DNA of 64,000 nucleotides. It comes from an uncultured Sphingomonas sp. Its GTDB lineage: Bacteria > Pseudomonadota > Alphaproteobacteria > Sphingomonadales > Sphingomonadaceae. Location: the NCBI RefSeq assembly GCF_913774285.1, contig NZ_CAJYHX010000028.1:62001-126000 (forward strand), written 5' to 3'. Position 1 is the stretch's first letter. Every line of letters starts with the position of its first letter. Made by a program: the position numbers and the translations under genes. Below, piece after piece: positions 4,378 through 42,314 of this stretch. The notes under the pieces were generated by a model, which saw only the letters and a list, made by a program, of their open reading frames with translations, was not told the origin of the DNA and made no database searches.

Positions 4378-4556
4378 GCTATTCGAACCAGCTCACTTTT
4401 CGCCGTGAAAATCTCCATCATTGTAGATGCGACTTCCTTAACCGGCTCGATATCGTTGACGATTGTCTACGGGATTCGACGGATAGTTGCCGCCCTTGTT
4501 CCCACCAGTGGCTGCCGGGCGCGCGCGCCTGCGCCGCCCGGCACCCAGGCTCCGCT

Positions 4557-5918: not shown

Positions 5919-5922
5919 GATC

Positions 5923-6996
5923 CTACTTTCTCCCCGCCAGCACGCGGTCCAGCTGCTGGCGATATGCGTCCAATTGGTCGATCGATGTTGCAAGCGCATT
6001 GCCGCCATCGGCGACGGCGCGGTGCCAGTCGACGATGTAGCGCAGCGCTTCTTCAAGCCGCAGTGCCGGGCGCCAGCCGAGTTCGGTGCGCGCCTTCGAG
6101 CAGTCGAGCTTGAGGATCTTCGCCTCGTGCAGCTGCGCCTGCTCCTCGGTGCGCCAGCCGGGGCCGCCCCAGGCCGCGCACATGCGATCGGCGATCCAGC
6201 GCACCGGCTGGGTGTCGTCGTCGGCCGGGCCGAAATTCCAGCCGGTCGCCGCCCAGGCGTCGCCCGCGGCAAGATGCTGCGCGATCATCAGATAGCCGCC
6301 CAGCGCCTCGAGCACGTGCTGCCACGGCCGGATCGAACCCGGCGAGCGGATGAACGGCGCCTCGCCTGCGATCAGTGCGCGGATGATGTCCGGGATCAGC
6401 CGATCGGCCGCCCAGTCACCGCCGCCGATGACGTTGCCGGCGCGCACCGAGGCGAGCTGCGGCCCGTTGGCAAAGAAGCTGCGACGATAGGCCGCGATGA
6501 TCAGCTCCGCCGCGCCCTTGCTGGCGCTGTACGGATCATAGCCGCCCATCGGATCGCTCTCGCGATAGGGCCAGACCCATTCGCGGTTCTCGTAGCATTT
6601 GTCGCTGGTGACGCAGACGATGGCCTTCAGCCCGTCGACGCGACGGCAGGCATCGAGCACGTGCGCGGTGCCCTGAACATTGGTCGCGAAGGTCTCGACC
6701 GGCGTCTCGTAGGACAGGCGCACCAGCGGCTGCGCGGCGAGGTGGAACACCACCTCCGGCTGCGCCGCGGCCATCGCCGCCTCCACCGCCGCCATGTCGC
6801 GGATGTCGCCTTCGACATGGGTGACCATGTCGGCGATCCCGGCCTGGCGGAACAGGCTGACCGGCTCCGCCGCGAGCGAGAAGCCGGTAACCTCGGCACC
6901 CATGCGGGTGAGCCACAAGGCCAGCCAGCTGCCCTTGAACCCGGTGTGGCCGGTCAGGAATACCCTGCGGCCACGCCAGAAATCTTCGTTCACCAT
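5923..6996 (-). CDS. rfbG: CDP-glucose 4,6-dehydratase
   Basis: Extended SDR of 357 residues converting CDP-glucose to CDP-4-keto-6-deoxyglucose. The NAD-binding motif is [10 protein letters not shown] near residue 14, CDP-glucose dehydratases typically showing GFKG, and the catalytic tetrad YxxxK is YSASK. The true start is the ATG at 6996 ([16 protein letters not shown]), which overlaps the rfbF stop by 7 bp; the track ORF begins 48 codons too early. It is translationally coupled to rfbF and followed 4 bp later by rfbH, giving the classical FGH order. Confidence 0.95.
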
Positions 6997-7763
6997 GACT
7001 TCCAGGGAGCTCCCTGCGCCCACAGGGCCTCGAGATGCTGCTTGTCGCGCAGCGTGTCCATCGGCTGCCAGAAGCCGTCGTGGCGATAACCCATCAGCTC
7101 GCCCGAAGACGCCAGGCGCTCCAGCGGCTCGCGCTCCCAAATCGTATCGGGCGCGTCGATCAGATCGACCACTGAGGGATCCAGCACGAAGAAGCCGCCG
7201 TTGATCAGCCCACCGTCGCCGGCCGGCTTCTCGACGAAGCTGCGCACGCTGTCACCCTCGAACTCGAGCGCGCCGAAGCGCCCCGGCGGTGCGACGGCAG
7301 TGATCGTCGCCTTGCGGCCATGCGCACGGTGGAACGCGAGCTGCGCCGTCACGTCGATGTCGGCAACGCCGTCCCCGTAGGTGAAGCAGAAGGGGGTGCC
7401 CGGCTCCAGATACTGGCGAACGGCGCGCAGACGACCGCCGGTCATCGCATCCTTACCGGTCTCGACGAGCGTGATGCGCCACGGCTCGCTCCAGTTCTGA
7501 TGAACCTCCATGCTGTTCTTGGAAAGGTCCAGGGTCACGTCGGCAGTATGCAAGAAGTAATTGGCAAAATACTCCTTGATCATATAGCCCTTATACCCGA
7601 GGCAGATCACGAAGTCGTTGATTCCATGACTGGAATAGATCTTCATGATATGCCACAGAATCGGCATCCCGCCCACTTCCACCATCGGCTTGGGACGCAC
7701 GGACGTCTCTTCGCCTAGGCGGGTTCCCAGCCCCCCGGCTAGGATAACTGCTTTGACCGACAT
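6990..7763 (-). CDS. rfbF: Glucose-1-phosphate cytidylyltransferase
   Basis: Nucleotidyltransferase of 257 residues making CDP-glucose from CTP and glucose-1-phosphate, the entry step of the CDP-dideoxyhexose pathway. Seen: the signature AVILAGGLGTRLGEET with RPKPMVEVGG, then ILWHIMKIYSSHG and the product-site motif TYGDGVADID. Length and motifs match the family throughout. It is the first gene of the leftward operon; roughly 296 bp of non-coding DNA separate it from the DUF2235 gene, so the operon promoter should lie there. Confidence 0.95.
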   Translation of the reverse strand: MSVKAVILAGGLGTRLGEETSVRPKPMVEVGGMPILWHIMKIYSSHGINDFVICLGYKGYMIKEYFANYFLHTADVTLDLSKNSMEVHQNWSEPWRITLVETGKDAMTGGRLRAVRQYLEPGTPFCFTYGDGVADIDVTAQLAFHRAHGRKATITAVAPPGRFGALEFEGDSVRSFVEKPAGDGGLINGGFFVLDPSVVDLIDAPDTIWEREPLERLASSGELMGYRHDGFWQPMDTLRDKQHLEALWAQGAPWKSW

Positions 7764-17825: not shown

Positions 17826-17841
17826 GTGGCGGAGCGGGAGG
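17826..17841. repeat. att direct repeat, left end of island
   Basis: GTGGCGGAGCGGGAGG, identical over 16 bp to 43714-43729 at the tRNA-Ser 3' end. It starts 17 bp after the stop of the last chromosomal GH43 gene. Confidence 0.9.
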
Positions 17842-17902
17842 AAGCCTGAGGTTGATCTTAAGTAATTCAATTTACATCTTAATATATGAGGCCGCGAAAG
17901 GC

Positions 17903-17938
17903 GCCCCCACATTTTTCCCCACACTTTCTGTGAGATTG
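17903..17938. repeat. Putative integrase arm-type binding sites, left
   Basis: A degenerate (GCCCCCACATTT) and an exact (TTCCCCACACTT) copy of a 12-mer in tandem, followed by TCTGTGAGATTG. The same three-part block, with two exact 12-mers and CGCGTGAGATCG, occurs inside the right end at 43579-43614 in the same orientation: 29 of 36 positions match. Paired tandem motifs flanking the core on both sides are what a lambda-family integrase needs. Confidence 0.7.
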
Positions 17939-17971
17939 CCAGGAACGATCTGGCACGACTGCCGACCGCTA

Positions 17972-18035
17972 CGCGCCCAAAGCCGGACATTCAGGGGAGC
18001 GATCAACCGCCCTGAAAGCGGACGCAAATCGGTAG
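17972..18035 (+). repeat. Dispersed intergenic repeat, copy 1
   Basis: Begins GCGCCCAAAGCCGGACATTC and continues to CTGAAAGCGGACGCAAA. A second copy lies at 20971-21035 in the same orientation. TTCAGGG and CCCTGAA within the unit can form a 7-bp hairpin. No coding potential. Confidence 0.65.
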
Positions 18036-18412: not shown

Positions 18413-19180
18413 TCATGCCTGCCCTGTGGGTTGAGGGGAAACGGCACGAGCAACTTCGACGTCGTGGAACGCGGTGGCCATCGCTGCTTCGTCGACTTCT
18501 CGGAGGAAATACGGGTACAGCGAGCGCGAGCTGCCCTTGGTCGCTTGCCTGTGGCTGGCGATGTTCGCCCTTATGGTCTCTACGCTGAGCCAAAGTAGAT
18601 GCGAAGGCGCCTGCACACTTTCATTTGTTCGAGCGTCTCCCACAGGACGAAAGCCGAGCATCGCTTCGTAGAAGCTTCGATGCCGCGGGTTCACCTCGAT
18701 GAAGAGGTCCGTGCATTGGTGCTTGGCCGATCCATAGATCAGCACGGCATGAAACAGGTGCGCCAAGCGGGGCCGAGCAGGGGTGGACGCGTCGAAAGCG
18801 AATTTCGTCAGCTCACAAATGCTGGCGCCTGGGGCAGCACGAAACGTGTCTAGGACATCCCCGAAGGTACGATCAGCAGCAAGGCCCGCACCGCCGTCGA
18901 CCGTCAGTGTAAGTGTGCCTACCAGAGCTTCGTCGGATGCGGCGAGGAATGTAGTGCAACGCTCTCCCTCAGGAATTTGATGATCGCAGCCATAACCCCG
19001 CCATCCATACATTCTGTTCAGAAGGTCTGCAGCTTCGGACCGGTGCTGCCGATTTGATGCGATCCGGATACCGAAGTCGGCAGCGGCCACAGGCGGCGAT
19101 TTATGCAACCACTCTGCCGCTAGGGATCCAACGGCTGCTGACGTGCGTCCGGCAGCCGCATTCACTGCGTCCAATGTCAT
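18413..19180 (-). CDS. FeeM-like N-acyl amino acid synthase / GNAT-fold acyltransferase
   Basis: Protein of 255 residues resembling the long-chain N-acyl amino acid synthase (FeeM) group, which joins acyl chains from acyl carrier protein to amino acids. Recognisable segments: IRIASNRQHRSEAADLLNRMYGWRGYG near residue 35, then LVGTLTLTVDGGAGLAADRTFGD, ICELTKFAFD, and FIEVNPRHRSFYEAMLGFRPVG, the GNAT-type acyl-binding end. The ATG at 19180 is preferred because the 67 codons upstream in the track ORF look unconserved. It is divergent from a PEPxxWA-CTERM gene, an association reported for this enzyme group. No signal peptide. Substrate is inference. Confidence 0.72.
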   Translation of the reverse strand: MTLDAVNAAAGRTSAAVGSLAAEWLHKSPPVAAADFGIRIASNRQHRSEAADLLNRMYGWRGYGCDHQIPEGERCTTFLAASDEALVGTLTLTVDGGAGLAADRTFGDVLDTFRAAPGASICELTKFAFDASTPARPRLAHLFHAVLIYGSAKHQCTDLFIEVNPRHRSFYEAMLGFRPVGDARTNESVQAPSHLLWLSVETIRANIASHRQATKGSSRSLYPYFLREVDEAAMATAFHDVEVARAVSPQPTGQA

Positions 19181-19455
19181 GATAATCCCGTCATTTTTGC
19201 TCTCGACCCGAGCTACGGGGTACCGCGACAGCCTAACGTTTGCGCTAAGGGTTGCCCACATTTCGGCCGTAGCGTTCTGAAAACGCGGCCAAAATTTCAA
19301 ACTTGTGGAACGGCCTAGTTTATCGCTGAGCGGTTGAGGCAGTGTGCCTCGTTTGATCGCATTTTTGCTGAATGGAACCAATCACTTGGCTAGGCGTTCG
19401 GCCCTCCGGCCGAAAATCGTTAACGGCTTGGTAACCTTTTCAGGGAGTCTACTGT

Positions 19456-20082
19456 ATGAAGCGCTATCTCGCGGCCGTTGCCGCCATTTCGGCGGGCCTT
19501 CTTGGCACGACCGCAGCCCAGGCTGCAACCACGATCATCACCCCGAGCTCGCAGCCGAAGGGCACGACTTTTGTTGTTTCGGGCGATCCGTTCTCCGGTC
19601 CGGTCGCTGCAACGTTCGGTCACACCGGCATTGCCAAGGGCGCTTTCACCGACATCTTCCAGTTCACGCTTGGCCAGGACGGCACCGGAAGCGGGTCCGT
19701 GACGACCAGCGTCACCAAGACGGGCTTCCTGAAGTTCACTGATCTCGACATCACCTCGGTCGTCTTCAACGGCATCGCTGCTACCAGCACTCTGTTCGAC
19801 CTCGGCGGCAACGTCTGTTCCACCCGCGGCGTCGGCAGCTGCGGAGCCAGCGAGTCCTTTGCCCTCACGGACGCGATGGTTAAGGCCGGCGTGCTGAACA
19901 CCATCACCATCACCGGCGTTTCTCGCGGTCTGGGCTCCTATGGCAGCAACGCGACCTTCGATCCGTCCGCCGTTCCTGAGCCCGCCTCATGGGGTCTCAT
20001 GATCGCCGGCATCGGTGCGGCCGGCTTCAGCCTGCGCCGTCGTCGCTCGAGCAATGGTCGCCGGTCGGTCCAGGCGGCCTGA
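19456..20082 (+). CDS. FxDxF family PEPxxWA-CTERM protein
   Basis: Secreted protein of 208 residues. It has an N-terminal signal peptide (MKRYLAAVAAISAGLLGTTAAQA), the FxDxF motif FTDIF near residue 75, and a low-complexity Thr/Ser/Gly beta-rich body. The C-terminal sorting signal is VPEPASWGLMIAGIGAAGFSLRRRRS: the PEP motif, a transmembrane helix and an arginine cluster. Such proteins are processed by exosortase/archaeosortase-like enzymes and usually associate with extracellular polysaccharide. No exosortase is encoded in the window, so a host enzyme must act on it. AGGGAG lies 8 nt before the ATG. Base composition is less GC-rich than the neighbours, consistent with island cargo. Confidence 0.9.
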   Translation: MKRYLAAVAAISAGLLGTTAAQAATTIITPSSQPKGTTFVVSGDPFSGPVAATFGHTGIAKGAFTDIFQFTLGQDGTGSGSVTTSVTKTGFLKFTDLDITSVVFNGIAATSTLFDLGGNVCSTRGVGSCGASESFALTDAMVKAGVLNTITITGVSRGLGSYGSNATFDPSAVPEPASWGLMIAGIGAAGFSLRRRRSSNGRRSVQAA

Positions 20083-21129: not shown

Positions 21130-23445
21130 TCAGCTCGCCCGTCGGCCGGTGATTTGCAGGTTCGGAGCGCCGTTAATTCCGATGGATAGCTCCTCCTCTC
21201 GAAGAGCCCTTGAGAAGAGATAGCCCTGTAGCTCATTGCAGCCGGCCGTTCGAAGCAACGAGCCTTGCTCGCTGGTCTCAACGCCTTCGGCGGTGACCGA
21301 CAGGTTCATCGCATGACCGAGCGCGATGACAGCCTGCACGATCGCGATCGCCTCCTGGTCGCGGCCGACACGCTTGATGAAGCTCTTGTCGATCTTGATC
21401 CGGTCTACCTTGAACTGCTTGAGATAGCTCAGGCTGGAATAGCCGGTGCCGAAATCGTCCAGAGCGATCCGGAAGCCCGCGTCGCGCAGTTCATGCAGGG
21501 CGGCGCGCACCTCTTCGCCGTCATCGAGGAGGATCCCCTCGGTCACCTCCAGCTCGATTTGTCGCGGATGCACGCCGCAGCGCTGGACGGTGGATCGAGC
21601 GGCTGCGACGAAGCCCGCCGCCTTGAACTGAACGGGAGATACATTCACGGCCATCGTAAGATCGGGCCACTTTTTCGAGACGCGGCACGCTTCCGCGAGC
21701 ACCCAGCTTCCCAGCGCGTGAATCAGACCCGCTTCCTCGGCGATCGGAATGAAAAGATCGGGCGTTAACAGACCCTTTTTCGGGTGATCCCAACGAACAA
21801 GCGCCTCCAGTCCCACCACCGTCGCGCCGTTTGCATCCATTTTCGGCTGATAGGCGACGAACAGCTGCTGTCGGGCGCCCAGCGCCTTTCGTAAATCCTC
21901 TTCCAGCCCGCGCCGATTGGCGAGGCTCTCGTCCATCTCCGCAGTGAAGAAGCGATAGCCGTCGCGGCCGCTGGCCTTGACGCTGTACATCGCAATGTCG
22001 GCCTTGCGTAGCAGCTCGGTGCGATCGGAGCTGCGGGGAGTTCCCGTGGCAATGCCGATGCTGCCGCCGATCTGCACTTCCGATCCGAGGATCGGAAACG
22101 GATTGCGCAGCTCCGCGAGGCAGGCCTCCGCAAGCGCGTGGAGCGCTTCCGGCTCGACGCCCTCGGCCAGGCAGATGGCGAACTCATCGCCGCCCAGCCG
22201 CGCCAGCAGCCCGCCTTTGGGCAACTGGGCCAAGAGGCGGCCGGCAACGCTTTGGACCAATTGGTCCCCGGCAAGATGGCCGAGCGTGTCGTTGACGTGC
22301 TTGAACTTGTCCAAATCGATGAGCAGCACGCCGAGCGCCTGCTGGGCCATGTTGCCCGCGGCGCCATCGACGAAACGATTGAACGCGGCTCGGTTCGGCA
22401 GCGAAGTGAGCACGTCGTGATTGGCGAGATACTGGGCGCGTGCTTCCTTCGCTTGAAGCTCGACGCGTGCGGCCTCAAGCGCGCCGATCGAGCGGGCATC
22501 CCTGAACATCAATCGCCCGACGACGAAGACGAGCGCCGCCAACAAGGCAATCAGCGCAGCCGCCGCCGCGCCGCCGCGCCTGGCTATCGACCGGAGAATG
22601 TCGCGACCGGGCATGTCCGGCCGCCAGCCAAGATGACCGAGCAGCACGCCTTGCGACGAGCGCAGGGGAGCGCTGTACATCCCGGCTCTTATCGAGGCCG
22701 GGGCCGACAATACCCGCGCATCGCGGATGCCGCGGATGCGGCCCAAATCGCCCATCAGCTTGCTGTCCAGAAATCGAATGCTGACCAGCATGGGCTGCCG
22801 CCCTGGAGAGCCGACCACGAGCTTGGAATCGGGGATCATCCGCATCACGCTGACCGCGGCCACGCGCCCGGAGATCTGCACGAGATCGGTCGCGTGGAAT
22901 GCGGCCGGCGAAGTGCGCACCGTGCTGTTCTGCGCCAATTTTTGGCCAGGCAGGCGCTCATGGGTGTTGGGTGCCCGGCGGAGCGCGCCTCTCGCCGCCC
23001 GGATCAGGGGGAGCAGCTCCGGTCGGACGCGCGCGAAGATGGCAGGGGAAATCCGCTCACCGCCTCGCATGGCGTAGACCGGCCGATCCTGACCGTTGAT
23101 GATAATGTCCAGCTCGTGATTGAACACATAGTTCAGCCATACACCCACATTCTTGTCGAGCCACTCGACATTGGGCTTGGCCTTCTGCACCTCCACATAG
23201 GCCGGGTCCCAGATGGCTACACCCGCTTGGCTTTGCGCGAGATCGTCGAGCACCGCGCCCAAAGCCAGATGAACATCGTTCGCCTGCCGTGCGCGGATCG
23301 ACTCGTCGACCTGATTGGCCGTTGCCCACAAGCTCCAGGTTCCGAACAGAACCAGCGCCACTGCAAGGCAGAGCGCTGGTGCCGCCACGAAGGTGGTGAA
23401 CCGCAGAAGGGGGCTGAGACGGGGAAGGCCAGGACGGTGGGACAT
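21130..23445 (-). CDS. CHASE4-like sensor with GGDEF and EAL domains (cyclic di-GMP turnover)
   Basis: Inner-membrane protein of 771 residues. An N-terminal transmembrane helix (about 12-35) and a second one (AAAAALIALLAALVFVVGRLMF, about 300) bracket a periplasmic CHASE4-like sensor containing GVAIWDPAYVEVQKAKPNVEWLDKNVGVWL. The GGDEF domain is intact (NHDVLTSLPNRAAF, LARLGGDEFAI) and so is the EAL domain (VGLEALVRWDHP, LDDFGTGYSSLSYL, FKVDRIKIDKSF), so both synthesis and hydrolysis are possible. The ATG at 23445 is preferred to the upstream TTG. It is island cargo next to a truncated TPR gene. Confidence 0.9.
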   Translation of the reverse strand: MSHRPGLPRLSPLLRFTTFVAAPALCLAVALVLFGTWSLWATANQVDESIRARQANDVHLALGAVLDDLAQSQAGVAIWDPAYVEVQKAKPNVEWLDKNVGVWLNYVFNHELDIIINGQDRPVYAMRGGERISPAIFARVRPELLPLIRAARGALRRAPNTHERLPGQKLAQNSTVRTSPAAFHATDLVQISGRVAAVSVMRMIPDSKLVVGSPGRQPMLVSIRFLDSKLMGDLGRIRGIRDARVLSAPASIRAGMYSAPLRSSQGVLLGHLGWRPDMPGRDILRSIARRGGAAAAALIALLAALVFVVGRLMFRDARSIGALEAARVELQAKEARAQYLANHDVLTSLPNRAAFNRFVDGAAGNMAQQALGVLLIDLDKFKHVNDTLGHLAGDQLVQSVAGRLLAQLPKGGLLARLGGDEFAICLAEGVEPEALHALAEACLAELRNPFPILGSEVQIGGSIGIATGTPRSSDRTELLRKADIAMYSVKASGRDGYRFFTAEMDESLANRRGLEEDLRKALGARQQLFVAYQPKMDANGATVVGLEALVRWDHPKKGLLTPDLFIPIAEEAGLIHALGSWVLAEACRVSKKWPDLTMAVNVSPVQFKAAGFVAAARSTVQRCGVHPRQIELEVTEGILLDDGEEVRAALHELRDAGFRIALDDFGTGYSSLSYLKQFKVDRIKIDKSFIKRVGRDQEAIAIVQAVIALGHAMNLSVTAEGVETSEQGSLLRTAGCNELQGYLFSRALREEELSIGINGAPNLQITGRRAS

Positions 23446-23841
23446 GCAACTGCGCAACCAAGAAAGACTTGATGCAAGTTCTTCAGACTGCCTGGTTCAG
23501 GACCGTTGCAGCCTCCATTGCTTGCTCCTCAGATTAGGAACAAAACCTTGTTTTTCAGTGAACTGCTCTGACGCAGGATTGGGGGCGATGCATCCCGTTG
23601 AACGCCGAAAGAACGGGCGTCGGCTTCTGCATCTCGATTCCCAGCCTCTTTTACCGGCATCGGCCTTCCACGATGTCGAACATTTCGAGCGATCCGTTTG
23701 ATGGGTGTTTCCTGCCAAGGCACAGATCGCCGGGGTGCAGGCCTCGCCATTTTCGTTTCGCCTCTGTGGTTTGGCGGACTGATCCGCTGTGCTGCAACGA
23801 TCCTATAATGCTGGGAGCGCGCCTTCCGCGCTGGGAGGACG
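23446..23841. other. Non-coding stretch between the GGDEF-EAL gene and the truncated TPR gene
   Basis: 396 bp with no convincing gene; track ORFs here are short and compositionally odd. It should contain the promoters of the two divergent genes. Confidence 0.45.
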
Positions 23842-24195: not shown

Positions 24196-24420
24196 CAGCG
24201 TCATCGCCGGCCGCTTGGCCAGGATGTTGATCGCACCGCACACCTTGTCGTAGCCGTCGCGGATCTTCTCCAGGTCTGGGCCATAGTCACGCGCATGCAA
24301 TTCCTGCTGCCGCGCGGCGAAGCCGTCGACCGCAGCGGTGAGCCCCGCCAGCTTGCGCGACATGTCGTTGAACGCCTGGACGGTCTGGTTCGCTTCGGCG
24401 GGAGGTTCTTGGCTACCCAT
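24190..24420 (-). pseudogene. 5' fragment of a DUF6118-like mobilisation-associated gene
   Basis: Starts 2 bp after the traA stop (ATG at 24420) and reads MGSQEPPAEANQTVQAFNDMSRKLAGLTAAVDGFAARQQELHARDYGPDLEKI to LAKRPAMTLTPQ. This resembles the N-terminus of DUF6118 proteins that follow traA in sphingomonad elements. Beyond about 24190 the frame continues only as antisense of the TPR fragment, so roughly two thirds of the expected protein is lost. Two 5' fragments meeting tail to tail imply a deletion or inversion junction. Confidence 0.65.
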
Positions 24421-24422
24421 GG

Positions 24423-27400
24423 CTACATTCCAATCCCAAGGCCCCGATCCCGATCGATCGAGAAGGTGAGCTGGCGGATGACCGAGCGCGTACGAGCATC
24501 ATCGCCAAGCGCCCGGCTGACGCCGCCGTCGCGGCTGCCGGGCGTCCATTCCGGCGACCACTGCCGCCCGAACAACTGACTACCCCGGCGGCTGAGCGCG
24601 GCGCCGAGCGCCGGGTCCTTCTCCAGCCCCTTCGCCATCGAGCGCATGGCGTTCTCGACACCTGCGCGCTTCTCTTCATTCTCCCACCCGCCCAACTTGC
24701 CCCGACGCGCCTGAAGCTGCTGCCAGGCCTGGACAAACCGATCAGCGCGCAGCTCAGGGTTGGTGCGCACCTCGGCCTCCAGCTGCATCTGGCGAATGGC
24801 TTTGGCGGTGCGGCCGTTGGCGGCTTCGCTAACCAAGCCCGGCGTCCGCTCGAACGCCATGTCGAGATCGCGGGACCCGTGGGGATGCAGCGCGTTGATC
24901 GCCTCGGCGGTGCGCGCGAGCGCTGCCTTCTGAACTTCGAGCGGCGCGCGGCCTTGGCCCGTCATGCGGCCTGCATCCTGTACGGCACGCGCATAGCCTT
25001 CGACCGCCCGCTCCAGCTTCTGCGTTGCGGATGCCTCGGGCGTAGCCGCCGGCACCGAGAGTTTGAGCCCGTCGAAGCGCAGCTTTGTGGGCGCTCGCTC
25101 TGGCTCGGGGATGGACAGCCGCAACCCATCGAACATGCCGCGACGGGGTCCCGGTGCAGGCGCGCTACGCTCGGGTTCGACCAGCGGCTCTTTGGCAAGC
25201 GTATCGAGAATGCGCGACCGTTCGACACCGCGCCGGGCGGCGAAACGCTCGGCAGCAGCCTCATAGTCGAGGGCATTGTCTTTCGGCCGGTCCCGCGACA
25301 GCGTGCGGGCCAGCTTGCCCTGGTCAGCGAAGTCGTCGCGGCCATAATGAAGCTGCACGGCGTCGCGATGCCGCGACAGCGCGACATAGGCAGCGTGCCG
25401 GTCGAGCCCTGGCGTCGCCAGAACGTGCACCCGGTCGACGGTGACACCCTGCGCCTTGTGAATCGTGGCGGCATAGCCATGGGCGACGTCGGCGTAGTTC
25501 TTGTGGTCGAAGGCGACCTGGCGACCATCGTCCAGCCGCACGGCCATGCGGGCGTGATCGACCTGTTCGATGGTGCCGAGACTGCCATTCTTCACACCAA
25601 GGCTGCGTTCGTTACGCAGGAACATGACCCTGTCGCCTGCCCCGAACAAGCGTTCTCCGCGCGTGGTTTCGACAGCAATATCAGCATCTAATGCCCCACT
25701 GCGTTTCATCGCGTCGCGGGCCAGCGCATTCAGTTCATCGCATTCCTGGTTGGTGTGGGTCAGAATGATGCGCAACGCACCCGGATCGGCGATCCGCTCG
25801 CGATCCCAGCGCGCAATGAGCGCCGATCGAGCCTCGACTCGCGTCTCCGAGTCGACGACCATGCCGGCCTGGGCATACGCCTCCAGCGCCTCGACTGCGC
25901 GTCCAGTTGCGAGCTGCCGCGTCGCCATCCGCTGCCAGTCCTCGCGCTGCCGGCGAATGTCGGTAATCTCGATGGCGCCATGCCGCTCGGCGACTGAACC
26001 GAACGCCGCGCCGGCTTCGATCGCCTGCAACTGCTCGGGGTCGCCGACCAACACCACCTTGGCGTGGCGCTTCTCAGCTTCGGCGATCACCCGCTCCATC
26101 TGGCGCGTGCCGATCATGCCGGCTTCGTCGATCACCAGGATCGACCTGTCGGTCAGTAGTTCACGACCCTGTCCCCATTGATGTTCGATGCTGGCGATCG
26201 TGCGCGACGTGATGCCCGATCCGCTTTCCAGATTCTCCGCGGCGATGCCGGACAGCGCCAGTCCCCGCACCTGATAGCCGGCGCTCTCCCACGCTTCTCG
26301 TGCAACGCCGAGCATCGCCGATTTGCCGGTACCGGCATAGCCGACGACAACGCCCAGATCCTTGCCGCTGGTGACATGATCAAAGGCGCTGCGCTGTTCG
26401 CTCGACAGGACCAGCCCGCGCATTTCGGCACGGGCCAGGGCGAGCTTGCGATGCTGCTCGTCCATGCCATGCCCGCGACTGGCATCGAGCTTCACCGTCG
26501 CGCGCTCCAGCCGCGCTTCAGCCTCGACCATATCGCGGCTGGTGAAGCGATCTTCGCCGCACCCGTCCTTACCCAGCTTCACGAGCTCGGGCGACGCGCG
26601 CACCGCTGCCATCACCTGGTCGAACTGCTCTTTGCCTTCGCTATGACGATGCACGAACATCGCCAGATCTCGGGTGGTGAAGGTCGCCTGGGTGCGGGTG
26701 ATCGCGTCGAGCGCAATCGCCGGATTGGCCAGCAGCTTTTCGCCATTGGCGCGCGCGATATCGTGATGCTCTTCGAGCCGTTCGGACGACAGCCCCTGCT
26801 CGGCCATTCGCGCCGCCGCTGAACCGATCTTGTGCTGCGGCTCTAGCTCGATGCCCTGCGCTTCCAAGGAGCGATGATCCACGCGCGCATCGATGTCCAA
26901 GTCGGCCAGCCGCGCATTGACGTGCCCCGCCCAGCGCTCACGCCATTTCTCCAGAAGGTCGGTGCGGTTCCAGTCGCGGTTCTTCTTGCCGAACCCATCA
27001 GCATCGACCTCACGCAACGCTATCATGACATGCGCGTGCGGCTTCGCTTCGCCATCGGCGCCGACATCCCAATGGACATTGAGATCGGCGACCATGCCGC
27101 GGTCCACAAATTCGGCCTGGACGAACTCGCTCGCCAGCCGAATGCCCTCGACCTGGTCCAGCTCGCGTGGGATCGCGAATTCGATCTCGCGTGCAAGCTG
27201 CGCGTCCTTGCGCAGCTCGACGGCTTCGACCGCATTCCACAGCTTCTCCCGATCGCCGAGATGCTCGGGCGCACCGTCCGGCAGCAGCACTTCGGAATGC
27301 ACGACGGCGGCCTTGTTCGAGAAGTCGTGATGCCGATCGAGTCGCTGATCGTGCAGCCGCGAGGCGGAGCGATAAGAGGCAGCGGCAAGTGCCGACGATC

Positions 27401-27446
27401 CGCTGGCGCGGCTGATGATCTTGGCCGAGAAATGGTAGATCGCCAT
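24423..27446 (-). CDS. traA: Ti-type conjugative relaxase/helicase TraA
   Basis: Relaxase of 1007 residues (MobQ-like). The N-terminal MobA/MobL domain starts MAIYHFSAKIISRASGSSALAAASYRSA and carries the metal-binding histidines in HWDVGADGEAKPHAHVMIAL. The central RecD-like helicase has Walker A GYAGTGKSAML and Walker B ILVIDEAGMIG, with later motifs AHGYAATIHKAQGVTVDRVHV. The start at 27446 is set by the highly conserved N-terminus, 20 codons inside the track ORF. It nicks DNA at oriT, for which a good candidate lies just upstream (27476-27504). traC and traD are divergent. No coupling protein or T4SS genes are present, so transfer needs a helper. Confidence 0.93.
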   Translation of the reverse strand: MAIYHFSAKIISRASGSSALAAASYRSASRLHDQRLDRHHDFSNKAAVVHSEVLLPDGAPEHLGDREKLWNAVEAVELRKDAQLAREIEFAIPRELDQVEGIRLASEFVQAEFVDRGMVADLNVHWDVGADGEAKPHAHVMIALREVDADGFGKKNRDWNRTDLLEKWRERWAGHVNARLADLDIDARVDHRSLEAQGIELEPQHKIGSAAARMAEQGLSSERLEEHHDIARANGEKLLANPAIALDAITRTQATFTTRDLAMFVHRHSEGKEQFDQVMAAVRASPELVKLGKDGCGEDRFTSRDMVEAEARLERATVKLDASRGHGMDEQHRKLALARAEMRGLVLSSEQRSAFDHVTSGKDLGVVVGYAGTGKSAMLGVAREAWESAGYQVRGLALSGIAAENLESGSGITSRTIASIEHQWGQGRELLTDRSILVIDEAGMIGTRQMERVIAEAEKRHAKVVLVGDPEQLQAIEAGAAFGSVAERHGAIEITDIRRQREDWQRMATRQLATGRAVEALEAYAQAGMVVDSETRVEARSALIARWDRERIADPGALRIILTHTNQECDELNALARDAMKRSGALDADIAVETTRGERLFGAGDRVMFLRNERSLGVKNGSLGTIEQVDHARMAVRLDDGRQVAFDHKNYADVAHGYAATIHKAQGVTVDRVHVLATPGLDRHAAYVALSRHRDAVQLHYGRDDFADQGKLARTLSRDRPKDNALDYEAAAERFAARRGVERSRILDTLAKEPLVEPERSAPAPGPRRGMFDGLRLSIPEPERAPTKLRFDGLKLSVPAATPEASATQKLERAVEGYARAVQDAGRMTGQGRAPLEVQKAALARTAEAINALHPHGSRDLDMAFERTPGLVSEAANGRTAKAIRQMQLEAEVRTNPELRADRFVQAWQQLQARRGKLGGWENEEKRAGVENAMRSMAKGLEKDPALGAALSRRGSQLFGRQWSPEWTPGSRDGGVSRALGDDARTRSVIRQLTFSIDRDRGLGIGM

Positions 27447-27475
27447 AGCGGCAATCCATTTACACCAAACAAGCG

Positions 27476-27504
27476 ACGTCGGCACGACGTATAAGCGCGC
27501 CCTC
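27476..27504 (+). other. Candidate origin of transfer (oriT), Ti/RSF1010 nic family
   Basis: ACGTCG-GCA-CGACGT inverted repeat (27476-27490) is followed directly by ATAAGCGCGCCCTC (27491-27504). The latter closely resembles the nic regions of RSF1010 (GTAAGTGCGCCCTC) and Ti plasmids (TATAATTGCGCCCTT). It lies between traA and traC, where oriT sits in Ti-type systems. Confidence 0.75.
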
Positions 27505-27617
27505 AAAAGATTTCATCTTTTTCTCGACTTGATCATCCCAAGATGTTTCACGATATTTTCGCTGATCGACGCAGTTCCTAAATCACCGAACATCAGTCAT
27601 CAACTTCGGAGAGTTCG

Positions 27618-27938
27618 ATGCGCAAACCGAGGGACTTCGATTCGGAACTGAAGGCGCTCGACAGCAAGGCGAGGCAGCTCAAACAGGCCAAGCTCCACCA
27701 GCTTGGCGAGCTGGTAGTCGCGACCGGTGCCGATGCGCTGCCGGTCGAGCAACTGGCGGGTGCGCTGCTCACCGCTGTCAGCGCGTCCGACATGATCGTA
27801 CGGGAGGACTGGCGCCAGCGTGGCGCGGCCTTCTTTCTGCTGCAGGGAAAAGCTCGCGGCGGCGCTCGTTCGCGTGCGGCATCGGCTGCGGCAGCTGACA
27901 GCAGCACGGCACCGATTGGAAGCGAAGCGGGCGCGTAA
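27618..27938 (+). CDS. traC: Conjugal transfer protein TraC-like (annotated TraC/TraD in Ti-type elements)
   Basis: Basic 106-residue protein: MRKPRDFDSELKALDSKARQLKQAKLHQLGELVVATGADALPVEQLAGALLTAV, the recognisable helix of the small relaxosome accessory proteins next to traA. A middle WRQRGAAFF motif is followed by a short Ala/Ser-rich tail. The ATG follows a GGAGAG ribosome site. It is divergent from traA across the oriT candidate and overlaps traD in another frame. It likely helps the relaxase at oriT. Confidence 0.8.
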   Translation: MRKPRDFDSELKALDSKARQLKQAKLHQLGELVVATGADALPVEQLAGALLTAVSASDMIVREDWRQRGAAFFLLQGKARGGARSRAASAAAADSSTAPIGSEAGA

Positions 27939-28173
27939 TGACACGCGGGAATGGATGGTGAAGCGCCGCGAACGAACGCGCCAGCTGATCGAGCTGGGCG
28001 GGCTGGTCACAAAGGCCGGGCTCGTCGACCTTACCGACGACGATCGCGCCGTATTGTTAGGGCTGATGGTCGAAGCCGCGGCTACCTTGCAGGGCGAACA
28101 TCGCGACCAGGCGCTGACACTCTGGCGACGGCGCGGGCGGCGTGCATTTGCCGAAAGCGCCGCAGAACTATGA
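27874..28173 (+). CDS. traD: Conjugal transfer protein TraD-like
   Basis: Small basic protein. A positively charged helix (RHRLRQLTAARHRLEAKRARN) is followed by the conserved TraD core REWMVKRRERTRQLIELGGLVTKAGLVDLTDDDRAVLLGLM and a WRRRGRRAFAE end. The start is uncertain: GTG 27874 gives 99 residues with the usual layout; ATG 27820 gives 117 residues, and ATG 27955 would remove the basic helix. The gene overlaps traC out of frame by about 65 bp, implying coupling. Its stop overlaps the end of the convergent YbaK-like gene by 6 bp. Confidence 0.75.
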   Translation: MRHRLRQLTAARHRLEAKRARNDTREWMVKRRERTRQLIELGGLVTKAGLVDLTDDDRAVLLGLMVEAAATLQGEHRDQALTLWRRRGRRAFAESAAEL

Positions 28174-28635
28174 CGGCAGCGAACAGAGATCGGCCCAGGT
28201 CCCGCCCACCAGTTCTGCGAGCCGTTCGGTTGTGATCCGCACCGACGCGGTGCGCGATCCAGCGGCGGGATAGACGGTGGCGAATTGGCGCAGCGAAATG
28301 TCGCAATAGATGGGCAGCGGCGTCGGCAATCCGAATGGGCACACGCCGCCAACCGGATGGCCTGTCAGCTGCTCGACGTCTTCGGCCGCGAGCATGCGTG
28401 GGCGACTGCCGAGCGCGTCCTTCACCTTGCGATTGTCGAGCCGGTAATCGCCGGCCGCCAAAACCAGCACCACCGCATCGCCGACGCGCAGTGACAGCGT
28501 TTTGGCGATCTGCCCCGGCAGCACATCAAGCGTGGCGGCAGCTTCGAGCACCGTTGCGGTGCTCGAAGCCCGTTCGATAATCGGAATGTCGGGTGCCCGC
28601 GCCTCCAGGAAGGCGCGGACGGCCTCGATCCCCAT
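28168..28635 (-). CDS. YbaK/EbsC-like aminoacyl-tRNA deacylase
   Basis: Single-domain protein of 155 residues with the YbaK fold. Seen: LPGQIAKTLSLRVGDAVVLVLAAGDYRLDNRKVKDALG, then the active-site region LTGHPVGGVCPFGLPTPLPIYCDISL. Family members hydrolyse mischarged tRNA such as Cys-tRNA(Pro). The start codon overlaps the HU stop as TGATG, so it is translated from the HU message. Its presence in the mobilisation backbone is common in sphingomonad elements, but its role there is unclear. Confidence 0.88.
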   Translation of the reverse strand: MGIEAVRAFLEARAPDIPIIERASSTATVLEAAATLDVLPGQIAKTLSLRVGDAVVLVLAAGDYRLDNRKVKDALGSRPRMLAAEDVEQLTGHPVGGVCPFGLPTPLPIYCDISLRQFATVYPAAGSRTASVRITTERLAELVGGTWADLCSLPS

Positions 28636-28910
28636 CAGCCGTTGAGCTTGTCCTTCACGGCCTTGGCGGGCGTGAAGGCAAGCTTCTTCGACGCCGCAAT
28701 CTGGATCGCCGCGCCGGTGGAAGGATTACGGCCTTCGCGCGCGGCGCTTTCCTTGACCTTGAACTTGCCGAAGCCGTTCAGCGACACTTCCTCGCCGGCC
28801 GCCGCTGCCTCGGTGATGGCAGTGAAAATGCCGTCAACCAGCTTGCGCGCGTCGGCCTTGGTGAGGCCGTGCGCTTCGGAAACGCGGTCGGCGAGATCGG
28901 CATTGTTCAT
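28635..28910 (-). CDS. HU-family DNA-binding protein
   Basis: Histone-like protein of 91 residues: NNADLADRVSEAHGLTKADARKLVDGIFTAITEAAAAGEEVSLNGFGKFKVKESAAREGRNPSTGAAIQIAASKKLAFTPAKAVKDKL, with the GFGKF and GRNPxTG DNA-arm motifs intact. The ATG at 28910 follows GGAG; the track ORF starts 30 codons too early. It is likely an accessory DNA-bending protein for transfer or excision. First gene of a two-gene unit with the YbaK-like protein. Confidence 0.95.
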   Translation of the reverse strand: MNNADLADRVSEAHGLTKADARKLVDGIFTAITEAAAAGEEVSLNGFGKFKVKESAAREGRNPSTGAAIQIAASKKLAFTPAKAVKDKLNG

Positions 28911-28983
28911 GGACGTTTTCTCCGTGTGAAAAGGGGCGTGCCCTCTAGGTGCGGTGCCCGATGCTGTCCAGCAGCCGACGCGA

Positions 28984-29907
28984 TCATGCGGCGGCTGCAC
29001 GCTCCAGCGCGGCGATGCGTTCTTCGCAGATAACCTGCACCGCCTGCCCTAACACTTCGACGCGCTCGCCCAGCCACGCCAGTTCCTCGGCGTTGATCCG
29101 ATAATGCTTCGAATAGCGCGCCTTCACATAGGCTTCTTTGAGCTTCTCGAACCGCGAACGGTCGCCACGCTGGTCGCGCGGCCACGCGTCCACAAGGCGT
29201 GGATCGATCCTCTCGGCCTGCGTACGCAGAAACCCAAGATTGTGGATATGCGGCGTATAGAAGGTGCAGACCAACAGCACGCAGTGGTAGAGGCTCTCGA
29301 CAGTCTGGTGCAGTTCGAATGCGGTCTCGCGAGAGTGCCCCTTCTCTAAGCCGAAGCGCACGAAGTCATGTCTGCGCATGGCTGCTGAGAACCACTCTTC
29401 GAAGTACTCCCGCGCCATCGCCAGCGCCTGGGGAGGCGTCTTGGGCTTCGGTTGGTGCAGTTCGGTAGGATCGCTCTCGTATAGCGCGATGCCGTCGCGG
29501 GCGACGTCCATGAAGAAATAGCGACCATGTGCCAGCCCGTCGTTCACCTCCTGAAGGGTGTGCACGATGAAATTGACGGGCGTGCGCAGCGTCTTGGTGA
29601 TCGCCAGTTCGCGGTTCAGCCGGTCCTCGGCGGTTGCCCAGAACTCGACGCGGTCGGTTAGCTTGTCGCTGTTGACGATGACCAACAGGTCAAAGTCGGA
29701 CTGATATCCCTTGGCGGTGTGTGGTTCGTCGACCCAGCCGCCGCGCGCATAGCTCCCGTACAGGATCACCTTGAGGATGCGCGCCTGCTTCTTCCAATCC
29801 GCCGTGGCAATGGCGATCGCGTCACCAAACTCCTCGAACAGGATCTGGACGACACGCTCCAGCTCGCGCTGCTTGGCTGGCGGCAGATGGTCGAGGCTGG
29901 TCCTCAT
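28984..29907 (-). CDS. Nucleotidyltransferase-HEPN fusion protein
   Basis: Protein of 307 residues. The N-terminal polymerase-beta-type nucleotidyltransferase has ILYGSYARGGWVDEPHTAKGYQSDFDLLVIV, where GS and DxD are the catalytic signature. The C-terminal HEPN-like helical domain (about 165-300) includes EYFEEWFSAAMRRHDFVRFGLEKGHSRETAFELHQTVESLYHCVLLV and KARYSKHYRI. Such MNT and HEPN domains often form toxin-antitoxin pairs; here they are fused in one chain, giving either a self-neutralised toxin or a nucleotidyltransferase with a regulatory helical domain. Located between HU and the ArdC operon, all on the minus strand. Activity unknown. Confidence 0.85.
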   Translation of the reverse strand: MRTSLDHLPPAKQRELERVVQILFEEFGDAIAIATADWKKQARILKVILYGSYARGGWVDEPHTAKGYQSDFDLLVIVNSDKLTDRVEFWATAEDRLNRELAITKTLRTPVNFIVHTLQEVNDGLAHGRYFFMDVARDGIALYESDPTELHQPKPKTPPQALAMAREYFEEWFSAAMRRHDFVRFGLEKGHSRETAFELHQTVESLYHCVLLVCTFYTPHIHNLGFLRTQAERIDPRLVDAWPRDQRGDRSRFEKLKEAYVKARYSKHYRINAEELAWLGERVEVLGQAVQVICEERIAALERAAAA

Positions 29908-29940
29908 GGATCGATCCTAACGCGCTGATGCGGCGGCGTA

Positions 29941-29969
29941 CACCTCGCCCGGTTCCCCGGGGCGAGGTG
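29941..29969 (-). terminator. Hairpin at the end of the ArdC-like operon
   Basis: CACCTCGCCC (29941-29950) pairs with GGGCGAGGTG (29960-29969), a 10-bp perfect stem with a 9-nt loop, 10 bp beyond the stop of the sigma-like gene. There is no T-tract, so it may be a terminator only in part. Confidence 0.45.
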
Positions 29970-29978
29970 TCGCATCGC

Positions 29979-30188
29979 TCATGGCTGCTCGCCCCGCTCT
30001 GCTCGACCCAGCGCGATCAGCACGCGGGCGACGGTTTGCTCCACCTCTTCCACCGTGCAGCCATGGCGCTCGGCCGTTTCGATGTAGTCGCAATCATCGA
30101 ACCGCACCGATCCGAAGACTGCCCGATCGCGTTCGGGCAGTGCACGGAAGGCGCGACGCATCCGCCGCAGGCGAAGCCAGCGCATCAT
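29979..30188 (-). CDS. Small sigma-70 region 4-like HTH protein
   Basis: 69-residue basic protein: RAFRALPERDRAVFGSVRFDDCDYIETAERHGCTVEEVEQTVARVLIALGR. It has the LPERDRAVF...AERHGCTVEEVEQ pattern of sigma factor region 4 helix-turn-helix proteins but no region 2. Its start overlaps the ArdC-like stop (ATGA), so it is translationally coupled. It may be a regulator of island genes; that is inference. Confidence 0.7.
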   Translation of the reverse strand: MMRWLRLRRMRRAFRALPERDRAVFGSVRFDDCDYIETAERHGCTVEEVEQTVARVLIALGRAERGEQP

Positions 30189-31093
30189 TGTGCCGCCTCC
30201 TCATCCGAGACGAACCCAAGCAGGTAATCGGCCGCCTTGCTGGCCGCACTCGCCGCCCGAAAGATCGCCTTTTCGTCCTGCCGCAGCACGGCCAACCAGC
30301 TGCCAATATAATCGGCGTGTCGCACGGTCGGCCGGATTGCCAGCGACGCACAGGTGAACGCGCTCGCCATCTCGGCAACCAGCTCCTCCCTACTATAGGC
30401 GGCGCTGCCAAATGCGCCGGATTGGTCGCGGCCGAGCCGGCAGTCATGCCCAGTCCAGTGCGCAAGCTCGTGCAGCACGGTGCGATACCAGTTGATGCGG
30501 TCGTAAAAGGCCAGCTGTGGCGGCACCGCGACATAGTCGCCGCCCGGGCTGTAATAGGCCTCGCCACCACCAATCCGGATATCAGCGCCACACGCTTCCA
30601 TCAGCGCATGCGCAGCAGGAATGCGATCCGCCTCGGCCACCGGTTCGGCGTGCTCCACCGCCCCCAGCCGCTCGGGCAGCCCCTCGCACTGTTCGACGTT
30701 GAACACGGTGAACCGCTTCAGAAACGCCAGCTGCCGCGCCTCGCGCTCCTCGTCCCGCGCTCGCTCAGCCTCGTCCTTCGGCGTAAAGCGATCCGCATAG
30801 CAGATCGTCGTCCCCCGCTCGCCACGCCGCACGCTGCCGCCGGCTGCCTGCGCCTGCCTAAAGGTCAGCCAGCGCTGCGAGGCGTACCGCCCCTCGATCA
30901 CTGCCGCCCACAGGATCAGCACATTGATCCCCGAATAGCGCCGCCCGGTCACGGCATTGGCCGGCATCGCGCAGCCACATGCCGCAGCATCCCAAGGCTG
31001 CACCCAGGGCAGCCGTCCCTGCTCCAGTTCGGCAATCACCCGTCCCGTCACCTCGGCATAGAGGCTCGCCCGGTTCTCGTGTCCAACACCCAT
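30185..31093 (-). CDS. ArdC-like antirestriction protein with zincin metallopeptidase domain
   Basis: Protein of 302 residues. The N-terminal DUF1738-type ssDNA-binding domain reads RASLYAEVTGRVIAELEQGRLPWVQPW...NAVTGRRYSGINVLILW. The C-terminal zincin has the HExxH motif in TVLHELAHWTGHDCRLGR and the later EELVAEMASAF glutamate. The ATG at 31093 is chosen because the family N-terminus begins here and AAGGAG lies upstream; the track ORF adds 156 residues of non-coding sequence. Such proteins protect incoming ssDNA during conjugation. It starts the operon whose second gene is the sigma-like protein. Confidence 0.9.
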   Translation of the reverse strand: MGVGHENRASLYAEVTGRVIAELEQGRLPWVQPWDAAACGCAMPANAVTGRRYSGINVLILWAAVIEGRYASQRWLTFRQAQAAGGSVRRGERGTTICYADRFTPKDEAERARDEEREARQLAFLKRFTVFNVEQCEGLPERLGAVEHAEPVAEADRIPAAHALMEACGADIRIGGGEAYYSPGGDYVAVPPQLAFYDRINWYRTVLHELAHWTGHDCRLGRDQSGAFGSAAYSREELVAEMASAFTCASLAIRPTVRHADYIGSWLAVLRQDEKAIFRAASAASKAADYLLGFVSDEEAAQ

Positions 31094-31859
31094 GGTCCTT
31101 GCTCCTTCCAAAACACCGCAACCGGCGCCGGAAGGGCGGGGGGAGCGGCAGGAGCGAACCGACAGTCCTGCCGTCAGAGGCAGGCTGCACCCGCAGGGCC
31201 GCAACGGAGTGAAGGAGCCGGGCACCGCCCGGCTTGCGGCATGCCGCGGCAGGACTAGAGGCGAGCGACGCTCCCCCCGCCCGTCCGCGTGCCGGCGCAC
31301 CAACGCCGCCGCGCTTTCGCGCGGCGACCATCCTGTCAGCGCAACCGCGCTGCCGGGCGCCACCGGCGCCGGACAAGAACCGCACCCTTGCAACCGGGCG
31401 GGCCTGCGCGGGCGGCGTGCGCGCGCCAGCACGTGCGCCAGCCGCCGCCCGTGCCCCCGTCCGGGCAAGTGTGTCACGCGGGCACCAACAACATGCGCGC
31501 CCAGGTGTCGCCGCAGGCGTGCGCCAGCGCGTGCACCGCACCCGCGTTCCGCTGCCGGCACCTGCCGGCCGCCGATCCACCGGATCGGCGAGCGTCAGCG
31601 ATCAAAGCCCGAAGGGCCGAGACGGCCACGCCGACTCGGTGCCGCGCCAGCGGCGTGCGAGCGCAGTCACGCCGAAGGCGTGAGACGCCCTGGCACGCCT
31701 GCCTTGAACCTCAGATGTTTCTTGCTCGACGATAAGGGGGTCGGGAGTCCCCAGGTTGCCCCATCTGAGCCCAACCAGGCTCTTTTTCCCGACCCACCAC
31801 TCGGCGCAACCTTGCCCCGGAGCGCTCCACCAACCCTCACACGATGCAAGGTGATCGCA
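31094..31859. other. Long non-coding region with nested inverted repeats
   Basis: 766 bp between divergent ArdC-like and AlpA genes. Dyads seen: GGGCGGGGGGAGCG (31134-31147) with CGCTCCCCCCGCCC (31269-31282); AGTCCTGCC near 31164 with GGCAGGACT (31249-31257); AGCCGGGC-ACC-GCCCGGCT (31216-31234); the palindrome GCGGCATGCCGC (31236-31247); and two copies of ACCGGCGCCGGA about 240 bp apart. Several ORFs cross it in multiple frames on both strands, as expected from extreme GC content; none has a recognisable domain. It could be a replication, partition or control region. Confidence 0.55.
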
Positions 31860-32075
31860 ATGCAACCCCCACCCCAAGACCGCATCCTCCGGATCAAGGC
31901 TGTCCTGGCACTGACCGGTCTCACCCGCTCCACTCTCTATCGCAAGATGGAAGCCGGCACTTTCCCCAAGAACACCCGGATCAGCACCCGCTGCATGGGC
32001 TGGCGCGAGTCCGCGGTCTCCCAATGGCTGGACAACCTCAAGGCACAGGAGGCTGCCGTCCGCCCGCGCGCCTGA
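31860..32075 (+). CDS. AlpA-family HTH regulator / excisionase-like
   Basis: 71-residue protein: DRILRIKAVLALTGLTRSTLYRKMEAGTFPKNTRISTRCMGWRESAVSQWLDN, the AlpA winged-helix pattern with the classical TGLTRSTLYRKMEAGTFP recognition helix. The ATG at 31860 follows AAGGTGAT; the track buries it in a 327-residue ORF from 31092. AlpA proteins typically activate integrase or act as excisionases in tRNA-integrated islands, so it may control excision of this element. Confidence 0.88.
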   Translation: MQPPPQDRILRIKAVLALTGLTRSTLYRKMEAGTFPKNTRISTRCMGWRESAVSQWLDNLKAQEAAVRPRA

Positions 32076-32196
32076 CGATCCCCTCCCACACGTCCGACTG
32101 CACCAATCCTATGCGGTGAAACGGCCTCGGCCCATCGAAAGATCTCCGAGCCCACCGTTTCACCTCACCGCCGCGATCCGCCGGACATGCTCGCCA

Positions 32197-32787
32197 TTAC
32201 AGCGACAGCACGTGCGCCCGCAGCACGTCGACGGTCTCGGTCAGCCCATCGGCTTCCATATCGAGCAGCAGCACTTCGGCCGTCTTCTCCGGACGCTTGA
32301 ACCGCTCGCGCATCCGTCGAATGGCCGCCACGGCCCTGCCTGGGTCAAGTGCAATGGTGTCGGCGATGAACTGATCCGCCGACCGGGCCTCCATATTCAG
32401 GCCGGCAAGAATTGCCCCGGGGAAGTCCTTCAGATTCTCGGTGACGATCGTTGCCGCCTGCGTCTTCAGCGCTGCAGCGACGACATGCGCATCGTTCGGA
32501 TCGGGCAACCCGACACACGCGCCCAGGAAGACGTCATACTCCTCCACAGCCGCATCTTCGAACGCGGCTTCCATGCTCGAGCAAGCGCGCGCGGCACGAT
32601 CCTCGGCATCCGCCACACCCTTGCCGCCGAGGATCCTGGCGATCGCAGCCTCGGTTTCGTCCATCACCCGTTCGGACCAGCGGACGCGGAAAAACTCGGC
32701 CTCGGCAAGCGTCAGCAACAGATTGCGCTTGAGCGTGCCCGCCAATGTACAGGCGTCAATGAACGCGGTGTACCGATTGGCGAACAA
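32197..32787 (-). CDS. PIN-domain toxin (type II toxin-antitoxin)
   Basis: Putative RNase of 196 residues. MFANRYTAFIDACTLAGTLKRNLLLTLAEAEFFRVRWS supplies the first acidic residue (FIDA); MDETEAAI and GLPDPNDAHVVAAAL give the others of the PIN active site. The start codon is TTG at 32787, 2 bp after the antitoxin stop, supported by the conserved N-terminus and by coupling. It forms a unit with the HTH protein upstream and probably stabilises the island. Confidence 0.85.
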   Translation of the reverse strand: MFANRYTAFIDACTLAGTLKRNLLLTLAEAEFFRVRWSERVMDETEAAIARILGGKGVADAEDRAARACSSMEAAFEDAAVEEYDVFLGACVGLPDPNDAHVVAAALKTQAATIVTENLKDFPGAILAGLNMEARSADQFIADTIALDPGRAVAAIRRMRERFKRPEKTAEVLLLDMEADGLTETVDVLRAHVLSL

Positions 32788-32789
32788 TT

Positions 32790-33245
32790 CTACAGGTGCT
32801 CCGCGTCCAACTCGGCGAGTGCTGATAGCGCGCTGCCGCGCTTGCCGTCGCGCGCGCGCTTGTAGGCGAACAGGTCCTCGGCCTTGATTCGACGATGCCG
32901 ACCCACGGTGTCGAACGCGATCTCGCCCTTCTCCAGCAACGAAATGAAGAAGGGACGGGAGACGTTCAGGATGTCCGCCGCCTGCTGCGTGGTCAGCATC
33001 TGGCTGACCGGCACCAGCGTTACCGCATCGCCCCGTCCGACGTGCCGCAGCAACTCCATCAGCAGCCGCGACAGGCCTGGTGTTAGCGTAATCTCGGTCG
33101 ACGTCTTGTCATCGTCCAGAACTCTGAGGGTCGCATCGCCGGAGGCGTGCGACGCCAGGATCTGACGGAGCTGATTGGCCGCTGCCTTCTCGCTCGCGGA
33201 AGGCAGACGGCTGCCGAGTTCCTCGGCAAAGGCTGGCATGGTCAT
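32790..33245 (-). CDS. HTH antitoxin of the PIN toxin
   Basis: Protein of 151 residues. The C-terminal excisionase/MerR-like helix-turn-helix reads MLTTQQAADILNVSRPFFISLLEKGEIAFDTVGRHRRIKAEDLFAYKRARDGKRGSAL; the N-terminal half (LPSASEKAAANQLRQILASH) is helical. The ATG at 33245 follows GGAGAG, in preference to the track start 8 codons upstream. First gene of the TA unit, so likely autoregulatory at the repeats upstream of 33276. Confidence 0.8.
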   Translation of the reverse strand: MTMPAFAEELGSRLPSASEKAAANQLRQILASHASGDATLRVLDDDKTSTEITLTPGLSRLLMELLRHVGRGDAVTLVPVSQMLTTQQAADILNVSRPFFISLLEKGEIAFDTVGRHRRIKAEDLFAYKRARDGKRGSALSALAELDAEHL

Positions 33246-33275
33246 GGGGCTCTCCGTGGGCCGATCCACTATCCG

Positions 33276-33309
33276 ATATTCGCATTAAACGCAATGAACG
33301 AAATATTCG
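33276..33309 (-). promoter_or_regulatory. Possible autoregulatory site of the toxin-antitoxin unit
   Basis: An AT-rich patch in GC-rich DNA with ATATTCG at 33276-33282 and again at 33303-33309, and CATT/AATG dyad between, 31-64 bp upstream of the antitoxin start. Confidence 0.3.
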
Positions 33310-33520
33310 TAACCGGGATAGGTTCCGACCTTGGACGCGACCCGCATCCGTGGCCGAAGCGGAAGTGGCGGTGCAGTGTCCTGCAGCAACATTGGGCCAG
33401 CACATGCTGCCATGCTCGCCGTGTAGATCAGCCTGGGCGCGGATCGGTGCATGCGTGACCTGCGATTGTCAGGGAACGGCCACGGTGTTGCAGCATTTTG
33501 CTGCAGATGAAGGCCATGTC

Positions 33521-37381: not shown

Positions 37382-37402
37382 CCCGAGCAATATGGCGTGA
37401 GC

Positions 37403-37435: not shown

Positions 37436-37436
37436 C

Positions 37437-42309: not shown

Positions 42310-42314
42310 GCAAG

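Follow-up and report, generated by a model that had tools for sequence, protein, structure and literature searches.

What does a putative N-acyl amino acid synthase of the FeeM type have to do with the single PEP-CTERM surface protein encoded next to it, on a mobile island whose neighbourhood holds no exosortase locus? We examined this locus in a 64,000-nucleotide stretch of DNA from an uncultured Sphingomonas sp. (hereafter, the window). A link between such synthase genes and PEP-CTERM/exosortase systems has already been published (Craig, Cherry and Brady 2011, J Bacteriol 193:5707, as cited in PMC7293339, PMC4897644 and PMC11072679), and papers citing that work describe synthase genes near PEP-CTERM/exosortase genes in Stieleria as well. 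In Methylomonas LW13, a polysaccharide band depends on a synthase annotated as part of such a system, a result backed by complementation (PMC11072679). The literature that we searched contains no mention of FxDxF PEP-CTERM proteins and no treatment of Sphingomonas together with exosortase and PEP-CTERM.

A FeeM-type synthase divergent from an FxDxF PEPxxWA-CTERM gene

The two genes and the region between them are arranged as follows.

18413-19180, minus strand: FeeM-type N-acyl amino acid synthase gene, 255 aa from the ATG at 19180 (PF21926)
19181-19455: divergent intergenic region, 275 bp, delimited by the ORF boundaries
19420-19434, plus strand: CtrA-like box TTAA-N7-GTAA, at an aligned position conserved in loci L027, L028 and L032
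19456-20082, plus strand: FxDxF-family PEPxxWA-CTERM protein gene (NF038126, NF035944)

The synthase ORF is readable upstream to a TTG at 19381, but homology begins only after the ATG at 19180, so 18413-19180 is most likely the extent of the gene. By profile, sequence and predicted fold, its product is a member of the FeeM family, with a predicted activity that converts acyl-ACP and an amino acid to an N-acyl amino acid. Specifically, a profile search matches it to PF21926 (E 2.2e-41; 141.7 bits against a curated cut-off of 27), and phmmer aligns it with the sequence of FeeM in PDB entry 2g0b (E 9e-13). An AlphaFold model built on an alignment with 45 relatives (mean pLDDT 83.7, pTM 0.79) retrieves FeeM (2g0b) chains as all of its top six PDB matches in Foldseek, with E from 1.2e-14 to 1.2e-12, TMt 0.83 and 29% identity in the structural alignment. 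Across the 45 relatives E162, P165-R166-H167 and Y171 are invariant, all of them found in the window synthase, and E123 and N164 are nearly so; the enzyme also has the stretches CELTKFAFD, EVNPRH..FYE.MLGF and RSLYP, whose columns are invariant or at least 90% conserved. The FeeM-like ORF proposed in the initial annotation is thus confirmed, fold residues included. The window enzyme differs from FeeM (2g0b) in being partnered with a PEP-CTERM gene and not with a biosynthetic cluster. Membership in the exosortase-associated acyltransferase family TIGR03694 (exosort_acyl), likewise tied to exosortase systems, was rejected, with no match in the window enzyme, the 45 relatives or the host genome.

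The neighbouring gene clears both NCBIfam cut-offs, with 77.6 bits against 50 for the full-length FxDxF profile NF038126 and 41.3 bits against 35 for the PEPxxWA-CTERM profile NF035944, and the 275-bp region described earlier does separate it from the synthase. Its product has a signal peptide (judged by eye), a beta-rich domain and a PEP-CTERM tail with the PEP motif near residue 174, a TM helix and RRRR; the structure model (pLDDT 85.5) ends in a helix at residues 176-200 with basic residues. The partner alignment has 39 members, every one of which matches NF038126. A PDB fold search with the partner model returned no informative match, only weak ones (query-based TM no higher than about 0.3), and we therefore draw no function from the partner fold.

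Among the other fold matches of the synthase model are the AHL synthases BjaI, LasI and MesI, as well as Naa60. Since the GNAT-type fold includes protein N-terminal acetyltransferases such as the last of these, and since the synthase is strongly paired with one protein family (see below), the enzyme might acylate the partner protein itself instead of a free amino acid. We consider this very improbable, because FeeM itself is the best structural match, and because no export signal was seen on the synthase, whereas maturation of the partner takes place outside the cytoplasm, where removal of the signal peptide creates its N-terminus.

The pair is carried by an integrative element in tRNA-Ser

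On sequence grounds, the pair is cargo of an integrative element of about 25.9 kb inserted in tRNA-Ser(GGA), and lies just inside its left end. The following features define the element.

17826-17841, plus strand: attL core GTGGCGGAGCGGGAGG, left end of the element (exact repeat)
24423-27506, minus strand: MobA/MobL relaxase-helicase (PF03389, 5.6e-66)
42391-43560, minus strand: tyrosine integrase adjoining the tRNA-Ser (PF00589, PF13356, PF22022)
43714-43729, plus strand: attR core, overlapping the 3' end of tRNA-Ser(GGA) (exact repeat)
43715-43805: tRNA-Ser(GGA)

The 16-bp att core is present in two exact copies in the window, with no third, against a chance expectation of 0.01, and TraD-like and AlpA genes lie between the two copies, as does the MobA/MobL relaxase gene. 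A tyrosine integrase beside a tRNA gene and direct repeats at both ends mark this as a tRNA-targeting integrative element.

A sister genome, that of Sphingomonas sp. TDK1, has a related element at the same tRNA-Ser, without the FeeM pair. This element is 91% identical to the window over 24251-39115 and about 92% identical over 42167-45885, and its far end is 92% identical to window positions 17826-17979; the left cargo differs between the two elements. Since TDK1 has the same element but no pair in it, the pair is variable cargo, and the earlier claim of portable cargo on a mobile island is supported. TDK1 does possess a pair of its own on another contig, the two genes being 60% and 66% identical to those of the window. 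When the window is compared with the 20 kb around the TDK1 pair, only the two genes match, and the sites differ. As a caveat, in the two closest relatives the region corresponding to the left flank (a GH43 region) is not beside this tRNA-Ser, so these genomes do not supply the left chromosomal junction of an empty site.

Two further genes of the element deserve mention. A neighbour of the pair encodes a CHASE4-GGDEF-EAL protein (21130-23457, minus strand). It falls within the stretch that the TDK1 element lacks, and this c-di-GMP enzyme may belong to the same variable cargo. Another island ORF (28984-29907, minus strand) combines nucleotidyltransferase (Polbeta) and HEPN domains, possibly as a toxin-antitoxin type element.

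The host genome encodes a resident exosortase

The island protein had been expected to rely on a resident exosortase, and the host genome supports this: it has one exosortase only, of the XrtV type (348 bits against a cut-off of 313); its gene and that of EpsI-V are on contig C33, which is not the contig of the window. The window partner, with its sorting tail, and the host, with XrtV and EpsI-V, thus resemble the PEPxxWA-CTERM/exosortase V system of Sphingomonadales (NF035944, NF035943), except that the partner gene belongs to a mobile element and lies far from xrtV. The host genome contains 24 PEPxxWA-CTERM matches, one of them on the island, and a single copy of FeeM. Exosortases of any type are found in 289 of the 295 genomes of the genus and FeeM in 20, weak FeeM matches of about 20-31 bits being left out of the count, indicating that FeeM is an accessory and not a core component.

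Judged by gene content, pair hosts supply both the exosortase and other FxDxF proteins. All 20 FeeM genomes encode FxDxF proteins, compared with 76 of the 275 others in the genus (Fisher, p=4e-11), and 17 of the 20 encode XrtV, compared with 52 of the 275 (p 2e-9); these and the binomial values ignore the relatedness of the genomes and serve for description only. One genome (G223) encodes many FxDxF proteins and a linked FeeM, with no exosortase found by PF09721 or XrtV searches at an estimated completeness of 100%, which is due either to a gap in the assembly or to a divergent sortase.

Synthase and FxDxF genes recur as neighbours

We gathered FeeM relatives by FeeM sequence or profile alone, and then applied the tail profile and the partner profile to their surroundings. 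Of the 51 non-redundant FeeM loci, 34 have an FxDxF-family partner no more than 1.1 kb away, whereas the density of PEPxxWA genes (24 per 4.28 Mb) would predict about 2%. The partner model was then held fixed for a later test in two other genera of the family, in which a partner was found beside all four FeeM genes. On a megaplasmid of Sphingomonas paeninsulae, FeeM and its partner, which others have annotated as 'FxDxF family PEP-CTERM protein', are about 1.1-1.15 kb apart with a Crp/Fnr-family regulator gene between them. The adjacency is therefore a recurring one, and the lack of recurrence that the initial annotation named as a refutation was not seen. Its description as divergent applies to the window pair and not in general, as the 34 linked loci comprise 15 divergent, 15 convergent and four same-strand arrangements, all equally real. 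The FeeM tree requires at least eight orientation changes among linked members, indicating that the adjacency has been maintained or rebuilt, not merely inherited. These comparisons show that, across Sphingomonadales, FeeM and FxDxF genes have remained adjacent despite repeated inversion and relocation.

Chance proximity, or passive hitch-hiking on an island, could be imagined from the many FxDxF paralogues per genome and the tendency of islands to gather unrelated genes, but it is hardly credible given the frequency of the pairing in both surveys and its repeated reorientation.

FeeM and partner distances are correlated (r 0.78, and 0.52 after thinning of close relatives; 0 of 2000 permutations), which partly reflects shared species history. 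Most FxDxF proteins do not adjoin a FeeM. The linked ones are strongly clustered on the tree (0 of 500 shuffles had as few label changes); that they form one clade was rejected, the tree having eight label changes. When neighbouring ORFs were clustered, no further widely conserved neighbour family emerged beyond shadow ORFs and the synteny of close relatives. In one locus (L095, G001:C6), a single FeeM gene has an FxDxF PEPxxWA-CTERM gene on each side, the two being sister genes.

A candidate portable surface module

The recurrent pairing, together with the presumed use of the host's sorting enzyme, suggests that lipid and protein cooperate on the cell surface. Our preferred reading, to which we give a probability of about 0.55 on genomic evidence, is that the pair is a small, portable module for the cell surface whose products cooperate. 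By analogy with its family, the cytoplasmic synthase would use acyl-ACP to attach a long acyl chain to an amino acid, and the resulting N-acyl amino acid would move to the envelope. The partner would be exported by Sec, processed by the resident XrtV at its PEPxxWA-CTERM tail, and released into or onto the surface or exopolysaccharide matrix. There, the amphiphile could be bound, displayed or co-assembled with the partner, altering adhesion, flocculation or matrix properties.

A bolder version, which we hold as a tentative possibility, makes the N-acyl amino acid a specific ligand or covalent partner of the FxDxF substrate, and the pair a horizontally spreading, self-contained surface cassette for any exosortase V host. 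As a mobile two-gene unit away from the EPS locus, the pair narrows the question to a single enzyme and a single protein, open to joint deletion or transfer, and it could expose what exosortase attaches proteins to, or the surface role of N-acyl amino acids.

Unlinked synthases and exosortase loci

A partner next door is not obligatory, since 17 of the 51 FeeM loci lack an FxDxF partner within 1.1 kb. These belong mainly to betaproteobacteria and to recent multi-copy lineages in which a genome has three or four FeeM copies. Distant FeeM homologues in another family of the order (E 1e-21 to 1e-31) have no partner in the 1.5 kb of flanking sequence searched.

Some of the unlinked genes lie close to exosortase components. 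In Pseudoduganella, two tandem FeeM genes follow genes for the exosortase A-associated acyl-CoA ligase, PLP decarboxylase and PrsT (TIGR03098, TIGR03099, TIGR02917), as annotated at positions 99-7338 of locus L049 (Pseudoduganella ginsengisoli) and seen also in L047, and in one multi-copy Sphingomonas a FeeM gene lies about 2 kb from XrtV/EpsI. Judging from these loci, the enzyme seems to be a companion of exosortase systems, with the Sphingomonadales pair as a version that has become separated from them.

Such loci, one of them with the exosortase-associated decarboxylase and acyl-CoA ligase, would also be expected if the N-acyl amino acid, or an amine derived from it, were the acceptor or lipid anchor to which exosortase attaches proteins after cleavage of the PEP-CTERM tail. 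To our knowledge, no acceptor of a bacterial exosortase has been described, which leaves room for this idea. We nevertheless find it quite unlikely, because the near-universal exosortases and rare FeeM genes of the genus indicate that the synthase is not needed for sorting in general, and because the host has far more PEPxxWA proteins than its single FeeM.

The proposal that the module is an undescribed add-on must be narrowed in the light of the published link between synthases and PEP-CTERM/exosortase systems. As the citing papers present them, the systems of Craig 2011 show the same kind of genomic association as the window, with a synthase near PEP-CTERM/exosortase genes, but the window has a compact mobile two-gene unit with one PEP-CTERM family and no exosortase locus in its neighbourhood. 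With prior work judged through those papers, what is new is the detached, mobile two-gene form with a dedicated partner family.

Upstream regions of the partner genes

The N-acyl amino acid might instead be a signal or regulator of matrix and PEP-CTERM production, in the manner of the product of an AHL synthase, with no direct contact with the partner. The FeeM fold is related to those of the AHL synthases matched above, a GGDEF/EAL protein adjoins the pair on the island, the S. paeninsulae genes flank a Crp/Fnr-family regulator, and the promoters of partner genes have CtrA-like boxes, or sigma54-like -24/-12 sites in the case of four loci. We regard this explanation as unlikely: no regulator is conserved beside the pair, and a signal need not travel with one structural surface-protein family, as the synthase does.

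The CtrA-like box of the window (consensus TTAA-N7-(A/T/G)TAA) lies 36 bp upstream of the PEP-CTERM start, with matching places in three relatives. In a post hoc comparison, such boxes were found upstream of 13 of 32 FeeM-linked and 3 of 47 unlinked PEP-CTERM genes, and in about 1% of shuffles; the box-bearing loci include L027, L028, L035, L043, L044, L053, L062, L067 and L095, among others. These boxes tentatively suggest a cell-cycle type control of the surface protein. A promoter box common to both genes was sought and not found, and the absence of a CtrA-like box from the FeeM upstream regions means that co-regulation of the pair is not supported. In one clade (L060, L063, L088 and L089), sigma54-like -24/-12 sites (TGGCAC-N5-TTGC) were recognized by eye upstream of the partner. 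Different lineages thus appear to regulate the same partner gene by different regulators, CtrA-like in some and sigma54-like in others.
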